A stretch of DNA of 62,606 nucleotides, from positions 1 to 62,606 of the forward strand of contig CANHQK010000009.1 in assembly GCA_947462765.1 (NCBI GenBank), read 5' to 3'. Source of the DNA: Bdellovibrionales bacterium (GTDB taxonomy: Bacteria; Bdellovibrionota; UBA1018; CAIMNF01). The notes under the pieces were generated by a model, which saw only the letters and a list, made by a program, of their open reading frames with translations, was not told the origin of the DNA and did no database searches. Below, one piece after another: positions 51,839 to 62,606 of this stretch; position 1 is the stretch's first letter, and each line of letters opens with the position of its first letter. The position numbers and the translations under genes are program-made.

Positions 51839-52576
51839 TTGAAAATTTTTTTAGCCGTAGGCTTCGTCGTTCTGTCTTTTTTTACATCTGAGTCGAGCGC
51901 TACCACTGGCGGTTGCGTCAACGTGAATAACGTTCCCAGTCCGACTAGCGTCAGTTCAGCCGCTTTTCAGTACTGTCAGGCGACAGGTTATAATGGTTCC
52001 GTGCCCTGCAACGCCGATAGTGCCTGTAGCTGGAATCCGGTTTTGTATCATGAGAACTACTGCAACGGGCCGTATTTGATCTCTGTTTTTGAAGGGAATT
52101 GTCCTACCGGTTATTCGCAGACTTCCTATCCAGCGGGTGTGCCAGTGAACCCGAAGTTCAAGTGCTGCAGAAAACCGGGAGAACCGACGCCGACAGCCAC
52201 TCCTAAACCTACAGCCACTCCGAAGCCGACTCCAACGGCTACTCCGAGGCCGACTGTGACTCCAACGGCTACTCCGAGGCCGACTGTGACTCCAACGGCT
52301 ACTCCGAGGCCGACTGTGACTCCAACGGCTACTCCACGGCCGACTGCGACTCCAACGGCTACTCCACGGCCGACTGTGACTCCAACGGCTACTCCACGAG
52401 TGACTCCCACACCGACGCCGCATTCAGGTGCAGGGAAGTGTTGCAATCCTGCTGGGAACGTCGTTCCAAGCCTGGTTCCTTGTCCAACACTTACCAATCC
52501 CAATCGGTGTTGCAATCCGGCAGGTAATCCGGTTCCACCCATGAATGGATCTGTGGATCAGTGTAAAGGTCGCTGA
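51839..52576 (+). CDS. Secreted cysteine-rich protein with Thr/Pro tandem-repeat linker
   Basis: A TTG start preceded by AAGGAG opens a 245-residue product with a signal peptide ([18 protein letters not shown]). Three parts follow: a cysteine-rich N-terminal domain (residues about 25-112, ten cysteines), a low-complexity linker of ([10 protein letters not shown])n, and a short C-terminal part with two CCNPAGN motifs. PT linkers of this kind join extracellular domains in secreted enzymes. No catalytic motif is seen, so it may be a surface-binding or structural protein. A strong terminator follows. Confidence 0.8.
52231..52398 (+). repeat. 30-bp coding tandem repeat (Thr/Pro linker)
   Basis: Five full 30-base units begin at 52231, 52261, 52291, 52321 and 52351, each starting TCCAACGGCTACTCC, plus a partial unit from 52381. 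Copies 1-3 are identical; copies 4-5 differ by one or two bases. The in-frame length (ten residues) means copy-number change would lengthen or shorten the linker without frameshift. Confidence 0.95.
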
Positions 52577-54969: not shown

Positions 54970-56055
54970 ATGTCGGGTCGGATGTTCAGGGGAAGGAAAG
55001 TTTGGTCAGTCTTGATGGCCCTCTCGATGATTTCGGGAGTTGGTCTGTCGGTGCCCGCCCGTGCTTTGCCGGTCGGTTTCAATCAAGCTTGGTTCAAAAA
55101 TCATTACGGCACTCAGTACCTGGACGAGGCATTCGATCCAGCAGAGGTCCGTCGCTTGTTCCGTTTGGCGAAGTCCGCTGGAGCCGATCAGATCCGGCTC
55201 TGGTTTTTCGAGACTACGAATTATCCGATGTTGAACTGGAGTGCTGACGGGCATCTCACGGGGATCCGCGAGGATTACATCCGGAATGTGGTCCGGATGC
55301 TCTCGATCGCTCGTGAGAACGGAATTCGCGTCTACATGACATTGCTCGACCCTCAGGTTTACCGGCCCGATCGTCGCAATCAGGATCACTCCCGGTTCAA
55401 GTGGATCTTGAGTCGGACCGGGGGGCGTGAATTCCTCGAGTCGGCCCTCGCACCTTTGCTCAAGTCGATTCACGAGTCCGGTCTCGCGGATCGGATTTCA
55501 CGGATCGACCTTGCCAACGAGATGGATGCGGCAGTGAATCGGTTCGCATTCGAGGGGGGATGGAACGGGGCCTCGAGGTTCTTGTGCCAGTGGCGGGCGT
55601 TCATCCATTCGAGCCCCGGCTTTGAGACGACTCCGGTCAGCGCCTCGCTAAGACTGCATCCTCTCTTGTGGTTACCCGGGTCGATTTTCGATTCCCAAGG
55701 CTCGATGGCCTGCTCTGATTTCCTTGATTTTCATTCCTACTCGGACAGCGGAAAGATTTACCGTTGCGGCGAGATTCTGGCCTACTCGAAGCGAAGCCGT
55801 AAACCCGTCATTCTCGGTGAGTTCGGTCAGGCTTACTTCACCCGTCGCTACAGCGATGACCTGCAGGTCAGGAACACCCGGAACTACATCGCTTCTGCGA
55901 ATGCTTGTGGATTCAAAGAAGCCTTGGCCTGGCGGTTGTCAGACATTCGGGAGGGCGAGAATCCCGAAGCTCGCTACTCCTTTGAAGCTTTTGGAACCAT
56001 CCGTCCTGCCTTCGAGCTGATTCGTGAGGAGAATGCCAGGGCTTCAAGGCCCTGA
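54970..56055 (+). CDS. Secreted TIM-barrel glycoside hydrolase (clan GH-A)
   Basis: ATG codons at 54970 and 54982 are both possible (about 361 or 357 residues); each leaves a signal peptide (VWSVLMALSMISGVGLSVPA). The barrel has the GH-A catalytic pair: acid/base in RIDLANEMD and nucleophile in PVILGEFGQA, at strands 4 and 7. ADQIRLWFFETTNYP early on is typical of GH5/GH39-like cellulases and mannanases. It probably cleaves a beta-linked exopolysaccharide or wall glycan. It lies next to a beta-helix gene and overlaps the amidoligase-like gene by 12 bases, convergent. Confidence 0.82.
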   Translation: MSGRMFRGRKVWSVLMALSMISGVGLSVPARALPVGFNQAWFKNHYGTQYLDEAFDPAEVRRLFRLAKSAGADQIRLWFFETTNYPMLNWSADGHLTGIREDYIRNVVRMLSIARENGIRVYMTLLDPQVYRPDRRNQDHSRFKWILSRTGGREFLESALAPLLKSIHESGLADRISRIDLANEMDAAVNRFAFEGGWNGASRFLCQWRAFIHSSPGFETTPVSASLRLHPLLWLPGSIFDSQGSMACSDFLDFHSYSDSGKIYRCGEILAYSKRSRKPVILGEFGQAYFTRRYSDDLQVRNTRNYIASANACGFKEALAWRLSDIREGENPEARYSFEAFGTIRPAFELIREENARASRP

Positions 56056-59000
56056 GGTCCCCCCGACCGCCCGGAGCACATCGAGGAACACATTGCATTC
56101 GGTGGCGGACCTGCCTCGGGCTTGATGCCGTTCTTTCAGCTTTTTCAAAAATGAGAGTGAGTCGGCACCCGGGTTGATCTGTTTCAGAATCCCCTCGGCG
56201 AACTCGGGGCTTTCGCCTCCGAAGAGCTCCAGAAGCGCCTTGTTCTGAGGATACCACTCGAGCTGATTTCCCCAACCTTCCCGCAGTTCCAGGATTTCAC
56301 TCTTCATATCCAGGTAAATGCCGGAGCGGACCGGATCCGGCAGTTTTTTGAATGCCGCGCGGACTCTCCCTTGGGCCAAACCAGAACCTTCTTGGGCCAG
56401 GAGCGCACTGAGTCGGTCCCAGAGTCGCTTCCGGGCCGAGTCCACGTGATTGAAGTCAGCGCGAGCCAGGTCCGGATGACTCACCATTCGTTCGAGCAAC
56501 TGGGTTCCCGCCTCACGGGAGCCACTCGCCGGAAGGAGTGTTTCCAGCTCCTGGATCGACATCCCGCTTAACGAACCCATGATTTGCTTCACGGCAATCG
56601 GGTCGGTTGCCCCCATCAGGGTTCCCGCATGCAGCAGGCGGGACTCTTTCGAAAGCGGCAGGCGTGAATACAGATCGGCAAAGGTCTGTTGCAGGTCCTT
56701 TGGAAGCTTCGGATCCCCGAGGTCGGCACCTACATACCGCATCAGCCCCGGGATCTGTTCCTCCGGGAGTGATGCGAGCCAACGCGATTCCTGTTCGTTC
56801 AGCTTCTGGAGAAAGCCTGCATCTTTCGCCCGGACTGACTTCAAGTCCCTCGCGAGCAACACCCGTTCATAGGGGGGGACTTGGGCGAGCTCCTCGAGTG
56901 TCAGGGTGCGGAGTTTCTGTTGGTAGCGTTTCAAGTAGTCTTTGGCGCCCTCGCTGAGCCTCGGGTAGTCCGATTCGGCCAGGTACTGCATCGCCCGTTT
57001 TCCGCTTGGTCCGAGTTCATTCTGGATGGATTCCATGGCGAGGTAAGACACCACCGGATCACTTGCGAGATTCCCCGCGGCGAGAGTGGTCGCCGCATGG
57101 TAAGCCGGAGTTCCCACTTTTGTTGTTTTGAGCTGATGGACCGCTGCGAAACGGTAAAGCTGCTTCTTCAGGCTCTCATCGTAGAGACCGTCTGCAAGAC
57201 GTGTGAAGTCGTCCGCATTCTTGTATTTGAGATCGAGAGCCTTGGCGGCTCCTTTGATCTGGTCCTTGCTGAGCCCCCAGGGATAGGACTCGAACAGGTT
57301 CTTTGCCATCTCTCCCACCGTTTTTTTCTGGACGGCGGTCAGTTTCAGTTCGGTGAGATCCCCGAGTAATTCGGCCTTCCGTGGAATCTCGAGATGATCA
57401 TACCTGTTTTTGATGAATTGCATGGTCTGTTTCGGGGTGGCCTCGTACTGGAACTTCAGGAGATCCTTTCTGACCTGAGGGTCCGGATTGCGTTCGATGG
57501 CGGCCAGCGTGAGGGAGCTCTTTCCCGCTTTTTGCGCCCGTTCAGCCAACCAGCGTGCGAATTCCCGGTCTTTGGTGTTTTCAAGATAGAGCTGGAGGGT
57601 TTGATCGAGCAAAGGAACGGGTTGAGGACGGCTCAACAATCGGTCCAACTTCTCAGCCAGTGCCTGCCGTTCTTTCAATGGAACTTTGGGGTCCCGGGAC
57701 CGCTCATAGGCGGCTTTCAGATAGAGGGGCAGATCCGGAGCCTGGATCCGCTCGATGTCTCCGAAAGCCTTCGGAAACGATTCATCGAGCAGAATCGATG
57801 CGATCTTTCTTTCGGAATCACTCGAGGACAGGAATCCGGAGAGCATGTTCTTGATCCCTTCCTTGTCATTTCTCCGGATCGCGCTCTTCAGGAAGGCATT
57901 CCGAACCTTCTCGTCGGGATGTTTCATCAGGTCGCTCAGAGCCTGATGGGCAGCGGGGGTTCCGCGAGTGAGCCCTTTCTGTGTGAGGTAGGCTGTTTTG
58001 AGTTCCGCTGGCTTGGTGAATCTCTGAGCCGCATCCGACCAGTAACGGACCAGAGCATCTTCGCTGCCTGGAGGGAGTTTTTTCAGATCGATGCTTTGAG
58101 TGAACTCGGAAAGCCCTTTTAGGCCCCGGGTTTCTTCGAGGATGGTCGAGAGGTCTGCGCTTTGAAACAGGGATGCCTTACGGGCATCGTCGAGTTTCAT
58201 GAGCTCTTCCAGTACCGGACCGGAGACTTCAGCATCCGGGAAAAAGGCCAGCTGCCGGAGCAGAGCCGAGGCCACCTCGTCATCACCGTGTTGCAAAAGG
58301 GACTTGGCGATGAAGCGCGAGCGCTCCGCGCTTTGCTTCATGTTCTTCGGGTCGAAAAAGTAGGAAAGGGTCTCCGGATCTTTCGGATCGAAGTAGGACA
58401 GGTTCCAGGAGGAGATCCTCGACACGATTTCGGAAGTGAGGCGTTCCACTTCCTCGGGCTTCAGGCGCTTGGAGTGCAAGCGGAGCAGATCCAGAGCCTC
58501 AAGGGGTTCGAGAGCTGCGAGTTGGCGCTCGTTGAAGGCTTCCAGGATCGTCGTCCGGGACGGGAGCTTCTGGGTGGTGAGGTTGACGGTCTCCACTGAG
58601 TTCATCTCCTCCCGCAGGAGCTCAGCCCGGGCTGCGGCCCCCCGTCTCAGGTCGAAAAGTTTTTTCGATTCTTCGTCCACCGTTCCGGTCCACCGGTGGT
58701 CTTCAGCTCGAATCGATTGGGTGGACGGTCTTGCGGCAACCGCCGGGCTCCAGTTCTCGGTTCGTGGAAACAGGGCCATCTTCTCTGAGTAGGGCACGTA
58801 GGAGGGCGAGGTTCTCCAGTCCTCGGTGATGCGTAGACCATCGTAGAGATATCCCCGGTATTCCTCCGGGTTCAGCCCCAGTTGGGAAGTGAGCTTGGCC
58901 AGACCCTCTTCCGCTTTTTTCGGATTTTTCGCCCAGCTTTCGTAGTTCACCTCCTGGACGACTCCACTCAAAGGGGCCGATTCATCCAAGGCGTAGTCGA

Positions 59001-61605
59001 TCATCGATCGGACCAGTTTGATCTGCGACTCGGCCTCGGACGGAGTCCGCGGAGCTCCGAAGAGACGGAATTCCGCCTTTCTGATCTTCGGGTCCACGTT
59101 GAAGGTTTTGCGCCAGGGGTCGTTTTTCAGGTCGAAATCCGTGGTCAGGTATTCGGGTGGGATGATGTCCTGGAAGTAGGCAGAGACATCGAGTTGAGTG
59201 TATTTGGTCTTACGTCCGAGGCGGGTGTTGAAGAATTTCTCATCATAGAGCAGTTTTTTGAGCTCGGATTCGGTGCCGTTGAAGTCCTTCAGTTTGTTCA
59301 AGAGGTTTTTCGAGACGGTGTGCGGCTCTGCGGAAGCCAGTCGTCCGGGGTGTTGATAGAGCATTCCGATGGTCGCGCGGTTCTCGAGGAAGACCGACAG
59401 GAAGCGCGCCATGGCCTTCGGGCGCCCTTCGAATACGGCAAGGTCGACGTTGATGTGTCCGCCGCCCATGGCGAAAGAAGGTTTCATGCCCTTGGCTTCG
59501 AATGCATCGAATACCGCACCCACGCTCTTCGATTCAGGATTGAATTTCGGAGTCACGACCTCGATGTGGCCACCGCGGATGGATTTGTCGATCAGTTTCC
59601 CGTTCTGATCATAGTCCCGTCCGACCCCGTCCCATTCCACGCGCCATTTCTGGTTGTTGGGGTCGCGGAACTCGTAGGCGATGACCATGGAGTGTCCATG
59701 ACCGGGATCGGAGAGAGAGGTGATCGGTGTTTTTTTCCCTCCGTTCATTCTTTGGGCCAGATCCTCTGCGAGGTCCTCGATCACTTTCTTCTTCTCTTCG
59801 ACACTGAGGTCCGCCTGGGTCGTGATCCAAGCCTTCTTGCCGGTTTCGGGGAGCGGGTTCTCACTCAAGACCACTTTGGTCCGGGTCGGGAAGCGGGCGG
59901 TGTACTCGATCCCGAGATCGACTTGATTCACATCGACACCTCTCGGATTTTTGGATGCGAAGCCCCCGAACTCGGGGTTTTGCGAGAAGGAGGGCGGCTT
60001 CGGTTTCAGGTAGGTTTCGATATCCCGTTTCAGATCGCTCGAGGCCACCCAGGTTTTCAGGTGTGACCGGATTCCCTCGAGGGTGGGGTCCTTCATGGCG
60101 GCCAGGTTCTTCACGAAGGATTGAGTCAGCTTTTTGAGCTCTTCGCTCTTGGCGGGAGAGACATAGGGGCTTTTCTCCCAATTCCAGAAGGGGAGCCAGA
60201 ATTCCTCCTGGAGCTTGCGGGTTTGCTCGTATCCGCCCTTCATTTTTGACATTTCGACAGATTGGATATTGGCGATCGCCTGTCTGACTTCGAGATCGCT
60301 CAGGCCGAAGCGCTTTGCAAGATTACCCTTTTCGAATTTGTGAAGCTCGTAAGCCGCATCGCCCAAGTCGTCGAACTCAGCAGTGGCGTAACGCGAAATG
60401 AGACAGGATTGGAGGAAACGCCGGTTTTTGTCGAGTTTGGTTCCGGCGCGTTGTTCGAGATTGAAAGAGGGCACTCCATCGACCTGGAATCGGTTCCGCT
60501 CGAGTCTCAAGACGCCTCGCCAGGTTTCATGAGTTTTCAGGCTCTCGGTGGTCTGGAGGTCCTTGAAGTCGGCGATTTCGATTCCTGTTCCACCTTCGAT
60601 CCCCGAGAGCACCGTGTGGGCTTGCATATTCTGGTAGATGTCTGCAAGTTTGTTCCGGACCTTCTGATCCGCTTCAGTATTGGATGCGAGGTTTTTGTAT
60701 TCGGGGAACACGATCCACTGGTGCCCCGGCGCCTCGAACAGGACTCCTTGATGGGAGAGCGAATTCCGGTACCAGGAGATCATCTCCTCGAACTCACCGT
60801 AAGACCTTTGGGGCTTGAAGTTCATCTCCCAGCCCACCGAAGTTCCGTGTGCATCCGACAGGAAACGCTCGGCATCGCCGAAGTGGGGCTTCCATTTCGT
60901 GTATTCGGCTTTTTTACTGTAGTTTTTCACTCTTCCCCAATGGTCCGATCCGGTCATTCCTGCGAATTGTCCGTTGAACATTTTGGAGCGGGTGGTCTGA
61001 TTCAGGAAACTGAAGGGTCGGTCTTCGGTCAGCTTCAACCAGGAATCGAAATCTTTTTTGACCTCTGCAAAAGGGAGCGACCGGTAGTCCTTGCCCTTGA
61101 AAGTCCCGGGATCGACGATTTTTTTGTTTCCGTTGGCATCGACCACCGGAGCCTTGTTCCGGTAGCGGCCGGCGGACCAACCTTCCATGAGCTCCCGGAT
61201 GAACTCCTGCTGTTTTGCCTCGTCCATCGTTTCGATCAGTTTTTTGAACTCATTGGAATCCGGGCCCATCACCCGCGTGATGCGGGAAGAGGAACCTTCT
61301 TTCTCACCCCCGAACATGAAGACCTGTTCGGTTCCCACGACGGTGATCGGTTTTTTCTCAAAGGTCATCGAACTTTCCATGAGGTCCGACCAGACTCCCC
61401 AAGCGCTTCGTTGGGCATCCTTCGGCATGACGAATTCGGTACCCGACTGCGGGAGGGTCTGAGTGAGGGGTTTTTTCGGGGCCCTGACGGAGCGTTCGCT
61501 CCGTGGAGAAACCACCAGGCCCGGATTCTGGGCATGGACCGGGGTTGAATCCAGTGTGACCAGGATCGAGAAAAACGCCACCGACAGAATCGATTTGATG
61601 TTCAT
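56044..61605 (-). CDS. Giant secreted amidoligase-like protein with HEAT-like repeats
   Basis: This 1853-residue protein has a signal peptide (LSVAFFSILVTLDSTPVHA) and AGGAA before the ATG. Residues about 560-870 look like an amidoligase (glutamine-synthetase-type fold): DLGIEYTARFP (563-573), WRVEWDG (654-660), GGHIEVVTP (678-686), GGGHINVDL (714-722) and AEFRLFG (844-850). A similar but looser pattern in residues about 220-420 (GWEMNF, FNLEQRAGT) may be a second copy. From about 1000 to the end the sequence is alpha-helical with HEAT-like repeats (HPDEKVRNAFLKSAIRR). It follows a protein-glutaminase-like gene by 63 bases. Confidence 0.72.
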   Translation of the reverse strand: MNIKSILSVAFFSILVTLDSTPVHAQNPGLVVSPRSERSVRAPKKPLTQTLPQSGTEFVMPKDAQRSAWGVWSDLMESSMTFEKKPITVVGTEQVFMFGGEKEGSSSRITRVMGPDSNEFKKLIETMDEAKQQEFIRELMEGWSAGRYRNKAPVVDANGNKKIVDPGTFKGKDYRSLPFAEVKKDFDSWLKLTEDRPFSFLNQTTRSKMFNGQFAGMTGSDHWGRVKNYSKKAEYTKWKPHFGDAERFLSDAHGTSVGWEMNFKPQRSYGEFEEMISWYRNSLSHQGVLFEAPGHQWIVFPEYKNLASNTEADQKVRNKLADIYQNMQAHTVLSGIEGGTGIEIADFKDLQTTESLKTHETWRGVLRLERNRFQVDGVPSFNLEQRAGTKLDKNRRFLQSCLISRYATAEFDDLGDAAYELHKFEKGNLAKRFGLSDLEVRQAIANIQSVEMSKMKGGYEQTRKLQEEFWLPFWNWEKSPYVSPAKSEELKKLTQSFVKNLAAMKDPTLEGIRSHLKTWVASSDLKRDIETYLKPKPPSFSQNPEFGGFASKNPRGVDVNQVDLGIEYTARFPTRTKVVLSENPLPETGKKAWITTQADLSVEEKKKVIEDLAEDLAQRMNGGKKTPITSLSDPGHGHSMVIAYEFRDPNNQKWRVEWDGVGRDYDQNGKLIDKSIRGGHIEVVTPKFNPESKSVGAVFDAFEAKGMKPSFAMGGGHINVDLAVFEGRPKAMARFLSVFLENRATIGMLYQHPGRLASAEPHTVSKNLLNKLKDFNGTESELKKLLYDEKFFNTRLGRKTKYTQLDVSAYFQDIIPPEYLTTDFDLKNDPWRKTFNVDPKIRKAEFRLFGAPRTPSEAESQIKLVRSMIDYALDESAPLSGVVQEVNYESWAKNPKKAEEGLAKLTSQLGLNPEEYRGYLYDGLRITEDWRTSPSYVPYSEKMALFPRTENWSPAVAARPSTQSIRAEDHRWTGTVDEESKKLFDLRRGAAARAELLREEMNSVETVNLTTQKLPSRTTILEAFNERQLAALEPLEALDLLRLHSKRLKPEEVERLTSEIVSRISSWNLSYFDPKDPETLSYFFDPKNMKQSAERSRFIAKSLLQHGDDEVASALLRQLAFFPDAEVSGPVLEELMKLDDARKASLFQSADLSTILEETRGLKGLSEFTQSIDLKKLPPGSEDALVRYWSDAAQRFTKPAELKTAYLTQKGLTRGTPAAHQALSDLMKHPDEKVRNAFLKSAIRRNDKEGIKNMLSGFLSSSDSERKIASILLDESFPKAFGDIERIQAPDLPLYLKAAYERSRDPKVPLKERQALAEKLDRLLSRPQPVPLLDQTLQLYLENTKDREFARWLAERAQKAGKSSLTLAAIERNPDPQVRKDLLKFQYEATPKQTMQFIKNRYDHLEIPRKAELLGDLTELKLTAVQKKTVGEMAKNLFESYPWGLSKDQIKGAAKALDLKYKNADDFTRLADGLYDESLKKQLYRFAAVHQLKTTKVGTPAYHAATTLAAGNLASDPVVSYLAMESIQNELGPSGKRAMQYLAESDYPRLSEGAKDYLKRYQQKLRTLTLEELAQVPPYERVLLARDLKSVRAKDAGFLQKLNEQESRWLASLPEEQIPGLMRYVGADLGDPKLPKDLQQTFADLYSRLPLSKESRLLHAGTLMGATDPIAVKQIMGSLSGMSIQELETLLPASGSREAGTQLLERMVSHPDLARADFNHVDSARKRLWDRLSALLAQEGSGLAQGRVRAAFKKLPDPVRSGIYLDMKSEILELREGWGNQLEWYPQNKALLELFGGESPEFAEGILKQINPGADSLSFLKKLKERHQARGRSATECNVFLDVLRAVGGTSGP

Positions 61606-61668
61606 CGATTCCTGATCGGCAACAGGCCTTGCGGAATGAAGCTTTAGGTGAGAGTCAATCGCCTGACG

Positions 61669-62415
61669 TTAACGAAAGGCTTGTCGATACGCCGTTTCAA
61701 TGTCGAACGGGAGGAATCGGTCCTTCACGGGCTCTCCCCGATCCACTGCTTCGAGATCTTTGGGTTGCCACATGTACATGGGCGCTACCATGAAATAACA
61801 GTACTCGGTGTGCTGGACCGATGCGTAGTCGGAGTAGCGGCTGACTCTCTTGCAGGGGGTTTTTGGTTTGATGAAGTCGTCCGACCAGTCCTTTACAGTG
61901 ACCGGTTGTTTGAAAAAACCGGGATCCATGACCCGTTCCTCCGGGCCCTGCGGGGTGATGACCCGGGTCAGGGGTGCGACATGAAACCACCAACGGTACC
62001 GGTACTCACGGATGTAGCGGGAGGAAAAAAACATGAATAGTTTCTCGGATCGGATGTCGAGATCGCGGTCGGCCTCATAAGCCCAGACATGGGCCCGATT
62101 GTAGCATTGGGCGCGGTAGCGGGTTTTCCGGTTCATCGCCTTGAACCAGCGATGCATCAGCCCTTCGTCGAGGACATCGCTTTCGTAGGCGATGGGGCTT
62201 TCCGATAACACCCCGTATCCGTGTTCTCCGGTTGAAACGATCTGCCTTTGTATCCACTCCTCGGAGCCGGGAGGGACCTCTTGGACCGAACCGTCGGACA
62301 AATAGACCAAGGGCGCTTCGCCAGGAGCGGTGTCCAATGCCACCATCGTGGTGGAAGACGGGAGAGCGTGGGCCATGGAACTGAAGAACAGGAGGATGAG
62401 GACGTTTACCGACAT
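61669..62415 (-). CDS. Secreted protein-glutaminase (protein-glutamine deamidase)-like enzyme
   Basis: This 248-residue protein has a short signal peptide (VNVLILLFFSSMAHA). The core fits the papain-like protein-glutaminase fold: candidate nucleophile in QCYNRAHVW (Cys104), KLFMFFSSRYIREY, histidine in WWFHVAP (His145) and aspartate in VMDPGFF (Asp164). The Cys-His spacing of 41 and His-Asp of 19 match the 41 and 20 of Chryseobacterium protein-glutaminase as I recall it. Cys188 and Cys206 may form a disulfide. It would convert protein Gln to Glu. The start follows GGGAG and lies 39 bases after the upstream gene. Confidence 0.78.
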   Translation of the reverse strand: MSVNVLILLFFSSMAHALPSSTTMVALDTAPGEAPLVYLSDGSVQEVPPGSEEWIQRQIVSTGEHGYGVLSESPIAYESDVLDEGLMHRWFKAMNRKTRYRAQCYNRAHVWAYEADRDLDIRSEKLFMFFSSRYIREYRYRWWFHVAPLTRVITPQGPEERVMDPGFFKQPVTVKDWSDDFIKPKTPCKRVSRYSDYASVQHTEYCYFMVAPMYMWQPKDLEAVDRGEPVKDRFLPFDIETAYRQAFR

Positions 62416-62454
62416 GCTCTCCCGGAGTGCAAAAGGCGTGCTCGAAGGAAGGAG

Positions 62455-62606
62455 TCAGGGTTCCGAACCCGGGGCGCGTCTCCGGTTCGGATTGTAGATC
62501 ATGAATTTCATCCCGACGCTATTTCCCATGAATCCGAGATTGTACTCCTGGGTTCCGTCGAGGAACCCGTGCTTCATGTGATAGAGACCGAGCTTGTTTT
62601 CATAAA
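62455..62606 (-). CDS. C-terminal end of an unidentified gene upstream of the protein-glutaminase-like gene
   Basis: The last 49 codons before a TGA at 62455-62457 form an open frame (KLGLYHMKHGFLDGTQEY, then GFMGNSVGMKFMIYNP) running off the right edge. Alternating hydrophobic residues and the aromatic content suggest beta strands, as at the end of a beta-barrel or beta-sandwich. Being on the same strand and 39 bases from the next gene, it is probably in the same operon. Not identifiable. Confidence 0.6.
   Translation of the reverse strand, partial: YENKLGLYHMKHGFLDGTQEYNLGFMGNSVGMKFMIYNPNRRRAPGSEP

Follow-up and report, generated by a model that had tools for sequence, protein, structure and literature searches.

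At one end of the window analysed here, a 62,606 bp stretch of Bdellovibrionales DNA, a protein resembling amidoligases is encoded beside one resembling protein-glutaminases, and both begin like exported proteins. Amidoligases of this type are regarded as dependent on intracellular ATP, and the periplasm is expected to contain none; an extracytoplasmic ATP-dependent ligase is a biochemical paradox. The locus raises two questions, namely whether the larger protein is an amidoligase that is exported, and whether the glutaminase beside it is its functional partner.

Gene content of the locus

The two neighbouring open reading frames of the initial annotation, encoding 1853 and 248 residues on the (-) strand, are both real and are separated by 63 bp. 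The signal peptides proposed for them were also recovered, as signal-like starts recognised by rule in the larger protein and by eye in the glutaminase. A third gene on the same strand had been overlooked: its last 49 codons lie at 62458-62604 and its stop is 39 bp before the glutaminase start. The features are as follows.

56044..61605, (-) strand: 1853-aa protein with a signal-like start (residues ~1-25), an N-terminal domain (~62-470), an Amidoligase_2-like domain (~545-965) and a HEAT-like tail (~966-1853)
60196..61422, (-) strand: N-terminal domain, residues 62-470 of the 1853-aa protein
58711..59973, (-) strand: C-terminal amidoligase domain, residues 545-965 of the 1853-aa protein
56044..58710, (-) strand: HEAT-like tail, with a sub-cut-off HEAT_2 match (residues 1214-1271, E 2.2e-4)
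61669..62415, (-) strand: 248-aa protein-glutaminase family protein, with a PF18626 match and a signal-like start
62455..62606, (-) strand: 3' end of the third gene (~357 aa in full), the body of which is on contig C16 (L046:11234-12319)

For the third gene, Pfam and PDB gave nothing that rose above noise. Its family is present in 27 of the 368 genomes of the phylum, and in the five others that have a strong amidoligase relative as well (G030, G125, G135, G149 and G153) it is located on other contigs. Promoter and terminator scans of the locus gave matches at chance level only. No NCBIfam model matched the amidoligase or glutaminase of the window, and the proteins of six relatives produced sub-cut-off NCBIfam matches only. 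PHROGs gave no match, none of 10 candidate stretches in IMG/VR was confirmed as a relative, and plasmid and phage sequences likewise yielded no confirmed relatives.

Amidoligase homology and predicted export of the 1853-residue protein

The description of the larger protein as amidoligase-like stands for its C-terminal region, on the basis of its relatives, but not for the Pfam score of the window protein itself. Against Amidoligase_2 (PF12224; gathering cut-off 22 bits), the window protein matches over residues 610-751 with 16.6 bits (E 0.0074) when taken whole, with 19.7 bits (E 8.6e-4) when scanned as a domain and with 20.6 bits in the genome search, all below the cut-off. One sister (G001) reaches 22 bits with neighbours in frame, and the other (G009) stays below the cut-off at 19.6. 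Across the phylum, about 30 family loci score above the cut-off, at 22-37 bits (best 37.4; rows counted in the genome search), and the C-terminal region is therefore a true homologue of Amidoligase_2. The C domains of 7 of 10 relatives match PF12224 at E<=1, and the 2020-aa form, L097, reaches 29.8 bits across profile positions 15-244; of the four long forms scanned besides the window protein, three (L049, L050 and L115) had no Amidoligase_2 match at E<=0.01.

The profile-profile similarity of the C domain to Amidoligase_2 exceeds that of the controls. Alignment of the 48-row C domain with 21 Amidoligase_2 proteins by hhalign gave 64.9% (E 6e-5); among the controls, 15 unrelated neighbour families reached E 0.031 at best and 10 column shuffles E 0.094. 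The similarity is weak when the alignment is restricted to the 11 compact members (19.2%, E 0.0012) or to the 10 other Amidoligase_2 proteins (14.9%, E 0.0018). The PF12224 matches of the family begin at profile position ~15 or later, leaving the first strand, with its ExE pair, unaligned; at the site of the compact members' GxExE, the C domain reads GIEYT. When the C-domain profile was run against PDB sequences, just two matches were returned, both to unrelated proteins (E 0.35 and 1.1). The AlphaFold2 model of the C domain, built on only 3 sequences (the window and sister loci L012 and L013), has a pLDDT of 42.9, and Foldseek found no match at E <= 0.001 with this low-confidence model.

In the C domain, E567, H636, H638, E657, D659, E682, H717, D721, R755, R798, K799, E845 and R847 are invariant in all 48 aligned relatives, and N719 is kept in 47. 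Of these, E657-x-D659, E682, H717/D721, E845-x-R847 and N719 correspond, by eye, to the motifs of Amidoligase_2. The N-terminal domain, with E101-K-E103, G294-H295, E384-x-R386 and R405 equally invariant (48/48), may be a second, diverged amidoligase copy; its hhalign match to Amidoligase_2 (2.8%, E 0.016) is suggestive and not clearly beyond the controls. A second amidoligase region had been placed at residues 220-420, where no Amidoligase_2 match was obtained in any of 10 relatives. Duplication of one domain into the other was considered as well and is not established, since hhalign of the N against the C domain gives only 0.8% (E 0.073). Among the long relatives searched with phmmer, the HEAT-like tail was matched only by the two sister species.

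Strong relatives of the 1853-aa protein are found in 59 of the 368 genomes, and the family appears to span Bdellovibrionota; its intact genes encode both domains in 887-2127 aa. A signal-like or lipobox-like start is present in 47 of the 49 relatives read, recognised by rule in 41 and by eye in 6. The rule, a simple hydrophobicity rule, is passed by 42 of 50 targets, or 41 of 49 once the weak relative L131 is set aside. Of the eight that fail it, L114 and L127 are truncated or broken, and the other six (L095, L096, L102, L105, L109 and L113) have, by eye, a shorter hydrophobic stretch followed by a lipobox-like Cys. The view that amidoligases are cytoplasmic fails in this phylum, with a signal-like stretch at the start of 14 of the 30 best PF12224 loci. 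Because the motif residues (48/48 aligned relatives) and the signal-like start are both conserved, the energy paradox pointed out in the initial annotation is genuine.

The compact form of Amidoligase_2 aligns by profile with the C domain and, by eye, has the motifs E-x-D, E-I-V-S/T-P and N-x-(D/E) in the same order; exported single-domain forms also have the E-x-R motif in the shared order (by eye). However, the compact proteins are 297-355 aa long here and all 11 of them fail the export rule, whereas the present family has signal-like starts. Compact Amidoligase_2 proteins and class-I amidotransferases are a known pairing, and the neighbour of the compact form looks like such a gene by eye, whereas the partners of the present family are peptidases. 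Other exported Amidoligase_2 proteins of the phylum (e.g., L150, L155 and L157) share the signal-like start and an above-cut-off match but are without the N-terminal EKEG/GHQ domain, for which their ~370-380 aa leave no room. None of the titles and abstract openings listed in literature searches described an exported amidoligase.

The glutaminase and other hydrolase neighbours

The glutaminase-like identity of the 248-aa protein was borne out by PF18626, which it matches with 50.7 bits (E 2.3e-13), well over the cut-off of 25. Cys104, His145 and Asp164, presumably the catalytic residues of the family, are present in 20/20 aligned sequences, and C188 and C206 in 19/20. The Cys, His and Asp are in identical order in known protein-glutaminase (PDB 3A54; 8Z3I by sequence), and the sequence match to 8Z3I (E 0.031) covers the HVAPL...DPxxF segment; the first ~100 residues match nothing. 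The glutaminase activity of the window protein is predicted, and its gene neighbours differ from those of the known enzyme. Its AlphaFold model has a pLDDT of 39.1, being built on the same 3 sequences of the window and loci L012 and L013. Protein-glutaminase is grouped with papain-like enzymes in PMC10318531.

An amidoligase-type protein thus adjoins a glutaminase-family protein, each of predicted export; conserved co-occurrence of the two, in contrast, was not supported. Adjacency was seen in just three species, all from a single genus with 12 genomes, with same-strand spacings of 63, 51 and 66 bp and 71-81% protein identity. Other genes of the surrounding block also keep their order in these species, which makes adjacency common to all three weak evidence. 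The two families co-occur no more than by chance: within one set of 58 genomes, a glutaminase match is present in 5 of the 11 that have the amidoligase and in 15 of the 47 that lack it (Fisher p 0.49). Amidoligase profiles matched nothing in 20 other glutaminase regions, several of which stop at contig ends.

The recurring partner of the amidoligase is a bond-cutting enzyme and not specifically a glutaminase; the pair is therefore no one-off. Conserved neighbours lie within 3 genes of the amidoligase in 28 of 49 loci (glutaminase included), namely papain-like peptidases in 17, a subtilase in 6, the glutaminase in 3 and BPL_N in 2; the remaining 21 loci, some at contig ends, have none of these within that distance. 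The subtilases are exported, come from six taxonomic families in the 6 loci and lie directly downstream on the same strand in 5. Such adjacency would arise by chance at about 1e-6 to 2e-5, as estimated from 6-16 subtilases per genome (16 genomes) and an assumed 2,500-2,900 genes, with shared ancestry ignored. Active-site motifs are retained in the subtilase and papain-like partners (by eye), and the c2 and C1-papain profiles recover one another's members at E 1e-6 to 3e-4.

Possible roles of a putative exported amidoligase

Our preferred reading, tentative at a probability of about 0.4, is that the 1853-aa protein is an exported and probably active two-domain amidoligase, which would depend on ATP outside the cytoplasm, be tied to an exported amide- or peptide-bond hydrolase and operate where prey ATP is at hand. 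It would act on peptide or protein carboxylates, in functional linkage with this hydrolase, whose targets would be peptide bonds or the amides of side chains; the hydrolase would be the presumably papain-fold protein-glutaminase in the present lineage and a subtilase or papain-like peptidase in others. The phylum includes bacteria-eating predators, and the likely setting would be tight contact with a second cell or growth within it, whereby prey ATP could reach the enzyme. This takes ATP outside the cell as an assumption and presumes a predatory lifestyle for the organism. From the sequences we infer the catalysis, ATP use, substrate and site of action of the amidoligase, and the role of the glutaminase as a functional partner and not a chance neighbour.

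An old amidoligase fold might instead persist in a protein that makes no amide bonds, such as an exported binding, adhesion or scaffold protein with a solenoid tail, processed by its partner peptidase; a variant counted under the same estimate is a transferase or hydrolase of this fold needing no ATP. This would fit a periplasm in which ATP is unexpected, the lipobox-like starts of several members, which may not diffuse into another cell, and the compact members' ExE pair not being visible in the C domain. Sub-cut-off HEAT/armadillo-like matches in three long forms suggest protein binding and point the same way. A scaffold is nevertheless hard to square with thirteen charged or His residues kept in the C domain of every aligned relative, or with N-domain residues E101, E103, H295, E384, R386 and R405 being kept in 48/48. 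That conservation weakens the inactive-scaffold option raised in the initial annotation, and we consider loss of ligation, in either form, somewhat unlikely.

It is quite possible, at somewhat below even odds, that there is no functional pair, with the glutaminase an ordinary exported digestive enzyme of a rich secretome and the adjacency a historical feature of one genus. The few genus genomes with adjacent genes, the chance-level co-occurrence, the absence of the amidoligase from the other glutaminase regions and the synteny of the entire block all favour this, but the short same-strand gaps are retained in three species and an exported amide- or peptide-bond hydrolase is often near the amidoligase elsewhere. 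The original proposal, that the Glu side chains made on target proteins by the glutaminase are the very residues that the amidoligase goes on to modify, is chemically consistent and agrees with signal-like starts on both proteins and operon-like spacing. However, the pair is confined to one small clade, and its replacement elsewhere by peptidases, which make no side-chain Glu, counts against this model and renders it very improbable.

The preferred reading of an active exported amidoligase could be extended to 'cut and cap', whereby the hydrolase would free a carboxylate on outside proteins or peptides and the amidoligase would cap it with an amine using prey ATP. The carboxylate would be side-chain Glu where the partner is the glutaminase, and the alpha-carboxylate where it is a subtilase or papain-like peptidase. 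Although this extension is itself improbable, it would, if true, give Bdellovibrionota a system that is driven by ATP and modifies proteins or peptides outside the cytoplasm. The conserved motifs, signal-like starts and exported peptidase neighbours make prey-ATP use and the target testable, and suggest an unexplored route for remodelling proteins or peptides outside the cell. A related arrangement is the RloA/RloB/RloC system of Pseudomonas, in which an exported peptidase is genetically linked to an ATP-grasp protein, possibly an amidoligase (PMC12239564). RloC is that ATP-grasp protein and is predicted to be cytoplasmic (PMC12239564), whereas in the present family it is the putative ligase that has an export-type start, and its type would be glutamine-synthetase-like.

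Gene order and spread of the big-protein family

The window corresponds to contig C9, one of 97 in a genome of 2.33 Mb, and carries at its end three neighbouring genes on one strand:

56044-61605, minus strand: gene for the amidoligase-like "big protein", 1853 aa
61669-62415, minus strand: glutaminase-family gene, 248 aa
62455-62606, minus strand: end of a gene of ~357 aa

At its end, the window shares a 608-bp overlap (96%) with contig C16. The latter therefore probably continues it upstream, with two genes, that of 357 aa and one that is methyltransferase-like. The whole gene order is retained in two sister species (G001 and G009), where the gap between the glutaminase and big genes is 51 and 66 bp, compared with 63 bp in the window. 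The big gene is found at 81% identity in two relatives, a MAG labelled Bdellovibrio sp. ZAP7 and a 'Proteobacteria bacterium'; the phylum is taken to be Bdellovibrionota on the strength of the former label. Elsewhere in the window, the protein encoded at 51839-52576 (plus strand) looks secreted and contains a linker of Thr/Pro repeats; its relatives occupy the same position in both sister species.

A single-sequence search detected relatives of the big protein in 11 of 58 related genomes, while a 10-row profile of its C domain gave matches in 66 of the phylum's 368 genomes, 59 with a best E-value <1e-20 and seven weak. Forty-nine loci were read (the window and two further sets of nine and 39); a 50th, L131, is only weakly related and was left out when neighbours were counted. 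Both domain profiles matched in all 49. Intact genes encode 887 to 2127 aa and the tails differ among long forms; when long relatives were searched with the tail of the window protein, only the two sisters matched. HEAT or armadillo-like matches recur in L049 and L097, every one below its cut-off. Three family copies (L127, G337:C89 and G338:C3) have an in-frame stop or split reading frame, and gene loss may thus be under way in some lineages.

Amidoligase homology and residue conservation

By sequence comparison, the C domain is homologous to amidoligases. Pfam Amidoligase_2 matched the C domains of seven of 10 relatives at E ≤ 1, and about 30 family loci exceeded its cut-off in the whole-genome search, in which the window protein (20.6 vs 22) and its sister in G009 fell below it; at E ≤ 0.01, three of four other long forms scanned gave no match. 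The C domain was aligned with hhalign to 21 Amidoligase_2 proteins, comprising 11 compact members and the 10 of 17 other loci with a GxExE motif (E 6e-5, 64.9%). The best control E-values were 0.031 among 15 unrelated neighbour families and 0.094 among 10 column shuffles. Taken alone, the compact members gave E 0.0012 (19%) and the 10 others E 0.0018 (15%). For the N domain, a relationship to amidoligases is only suggested: the result (E 0.016, 2.8%) was near that of the best unrelated control. By eye, the order of amidoligase motifs is followed by EKEG, GH and ExRxG...R, all invariant in this domain.

Each domain was aligned in 48 rows, the C domain without L052 (cut) and the N domain without L127 (broken). 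Invariant in every row were E567, H636, H638, E657, D659, E682, H717, D721, R755, R798, K799, E845 and R847 of the C domain and E101, E103, H295, E384, R386 and R405 of the N domain, which argues for chemistry rather than a scaffold role. One reason for caution about activity lies in the first strand: the GxExE of the compact members found no aligned counterpart in the C domain, where the sequence reads GIEYT.

Predicted export

Of 50 targets, 42 carry a signal-like stretch by a simple hydrophobicity rule; leaving out L131, the count is 41 of 49. Two of the eight failing the rule are truncated or broken (L114 and L127); in the other six, the hydrophobic stretch is shorter and, by eye, precedes a lipobox-like Cys. 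The starts of L052 and L120 are uncertain, because their hydrophobic stretch lies 50-61 residues in. Predicted export of amidoligases extends beyond the big-protein family: among the best 30 PF12224 loci, one per genome, 14 have a signal-like start, 11 are compact without one, and five are unclear, cut or helicase-like. Such signal-like starts are thus frequent among the phylum's other Amidoligase_2 proteins (L143-L159). In L160 and L161 the match lies inside a long reading frame that starts, by eye, with a helicase-like ATP-binding motif. No description of exported amidoligases of this kind was found in literature on Amidoligase_2, or on amidoligases in connection with Bdellovibrio, predation, secretion or signal peptides, judged on titles and abstract openings and with few subscription journals covered.

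Hydrolase neighbours and proposed function

The 248-aa protein matched the glutaminase family PF18626 with 50.7 bits over residues 102-179, and its sole PDB match in a sequence search was a protein glutaminase (E 0.031). The family was matched in 20 of 58 related genomes, several copies occurring in some. Twenty other sites were fetched from those listed, and all except L179 yielded a full gene; across the resulting 20-row alignment, window included, C104, H145 and D164 are present in every sequence and C188 and C206 in 19. The two latter cysteines may be disulphide-bonded, as is seen in exported proteins. Amidoligase profiles matched none of the 20 fetched regions, some of which stop at contig ends. 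Copies in L173, L174, L176 and L177 lie in a recurring block with ~700-aa and ~330-aa genes and a divergent ~1250-aa gene.

Candidate partners within three genes of the amidoligase were counted in the 49 loci. They comprise a glutaminase in three loci (the window clade), BPL_N in two, a subtilase in six and a papain-like protein of cluster c2 in 17; seven of the c2 loci also have a member of papain family C1 (cluster c9). Altogether 28 loci have a listed partner; the 21 with none count against a universal partner rule. Each of the six subtilase loci belongs to a different taxonomic family, and their remaining neighbours differ. In L055 the subtilase lies two genes away on the opposite strand, and L127 is the locus with the broken amidoligase gene. 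The c2 loci span two families. Pfam supported the three subtilases tested out of the six (E 2e-43 to 8e-49) and, above the cut-off, one tested C1 partner (E 1.1e-5), whereas c2 matched papain weakly (E 0.0043, below the cut-off, in one tested and none in the other). The c2 and c9 profiles matched each other's members reciprocally (E 1e-6 to 3e-4), and active-site motifs of the subtilase and papain-like partners are, by eye, retained.

The computed steps of the proposed function are the signal-like starts, amidoligase homology, residue conservation and recurrent exported hydrolase neighbours. Beyond these, we infer that the amidoligase would carry out ATP-dependent ligation outside the cytoplasm, may draw its ATP from prey and may cooperate with the neighbouring hydrolase. 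According to older literature, Bdellovibrio may take up prey ATP. The initial annotation had proposed that deamidation of Gln to Glu supplies side chains for amide formation; with a glutaminase near the amidoligase only in the window clade, this would be one lineage's variant at most.

Two further kinds of neighbour were observed. Beside the amidoligase in L100 (266-4942) are two tandem paralogues of ~760-790 aa with FESEY and G(G/A)GHLY motifs, for which profile comparison gave no clear result. Directly upstream of a ~1000-aa amidoligase in 18 loci (L092-L113) lies c1, a ~330-aa protein with a signal-like start and a CFF end.
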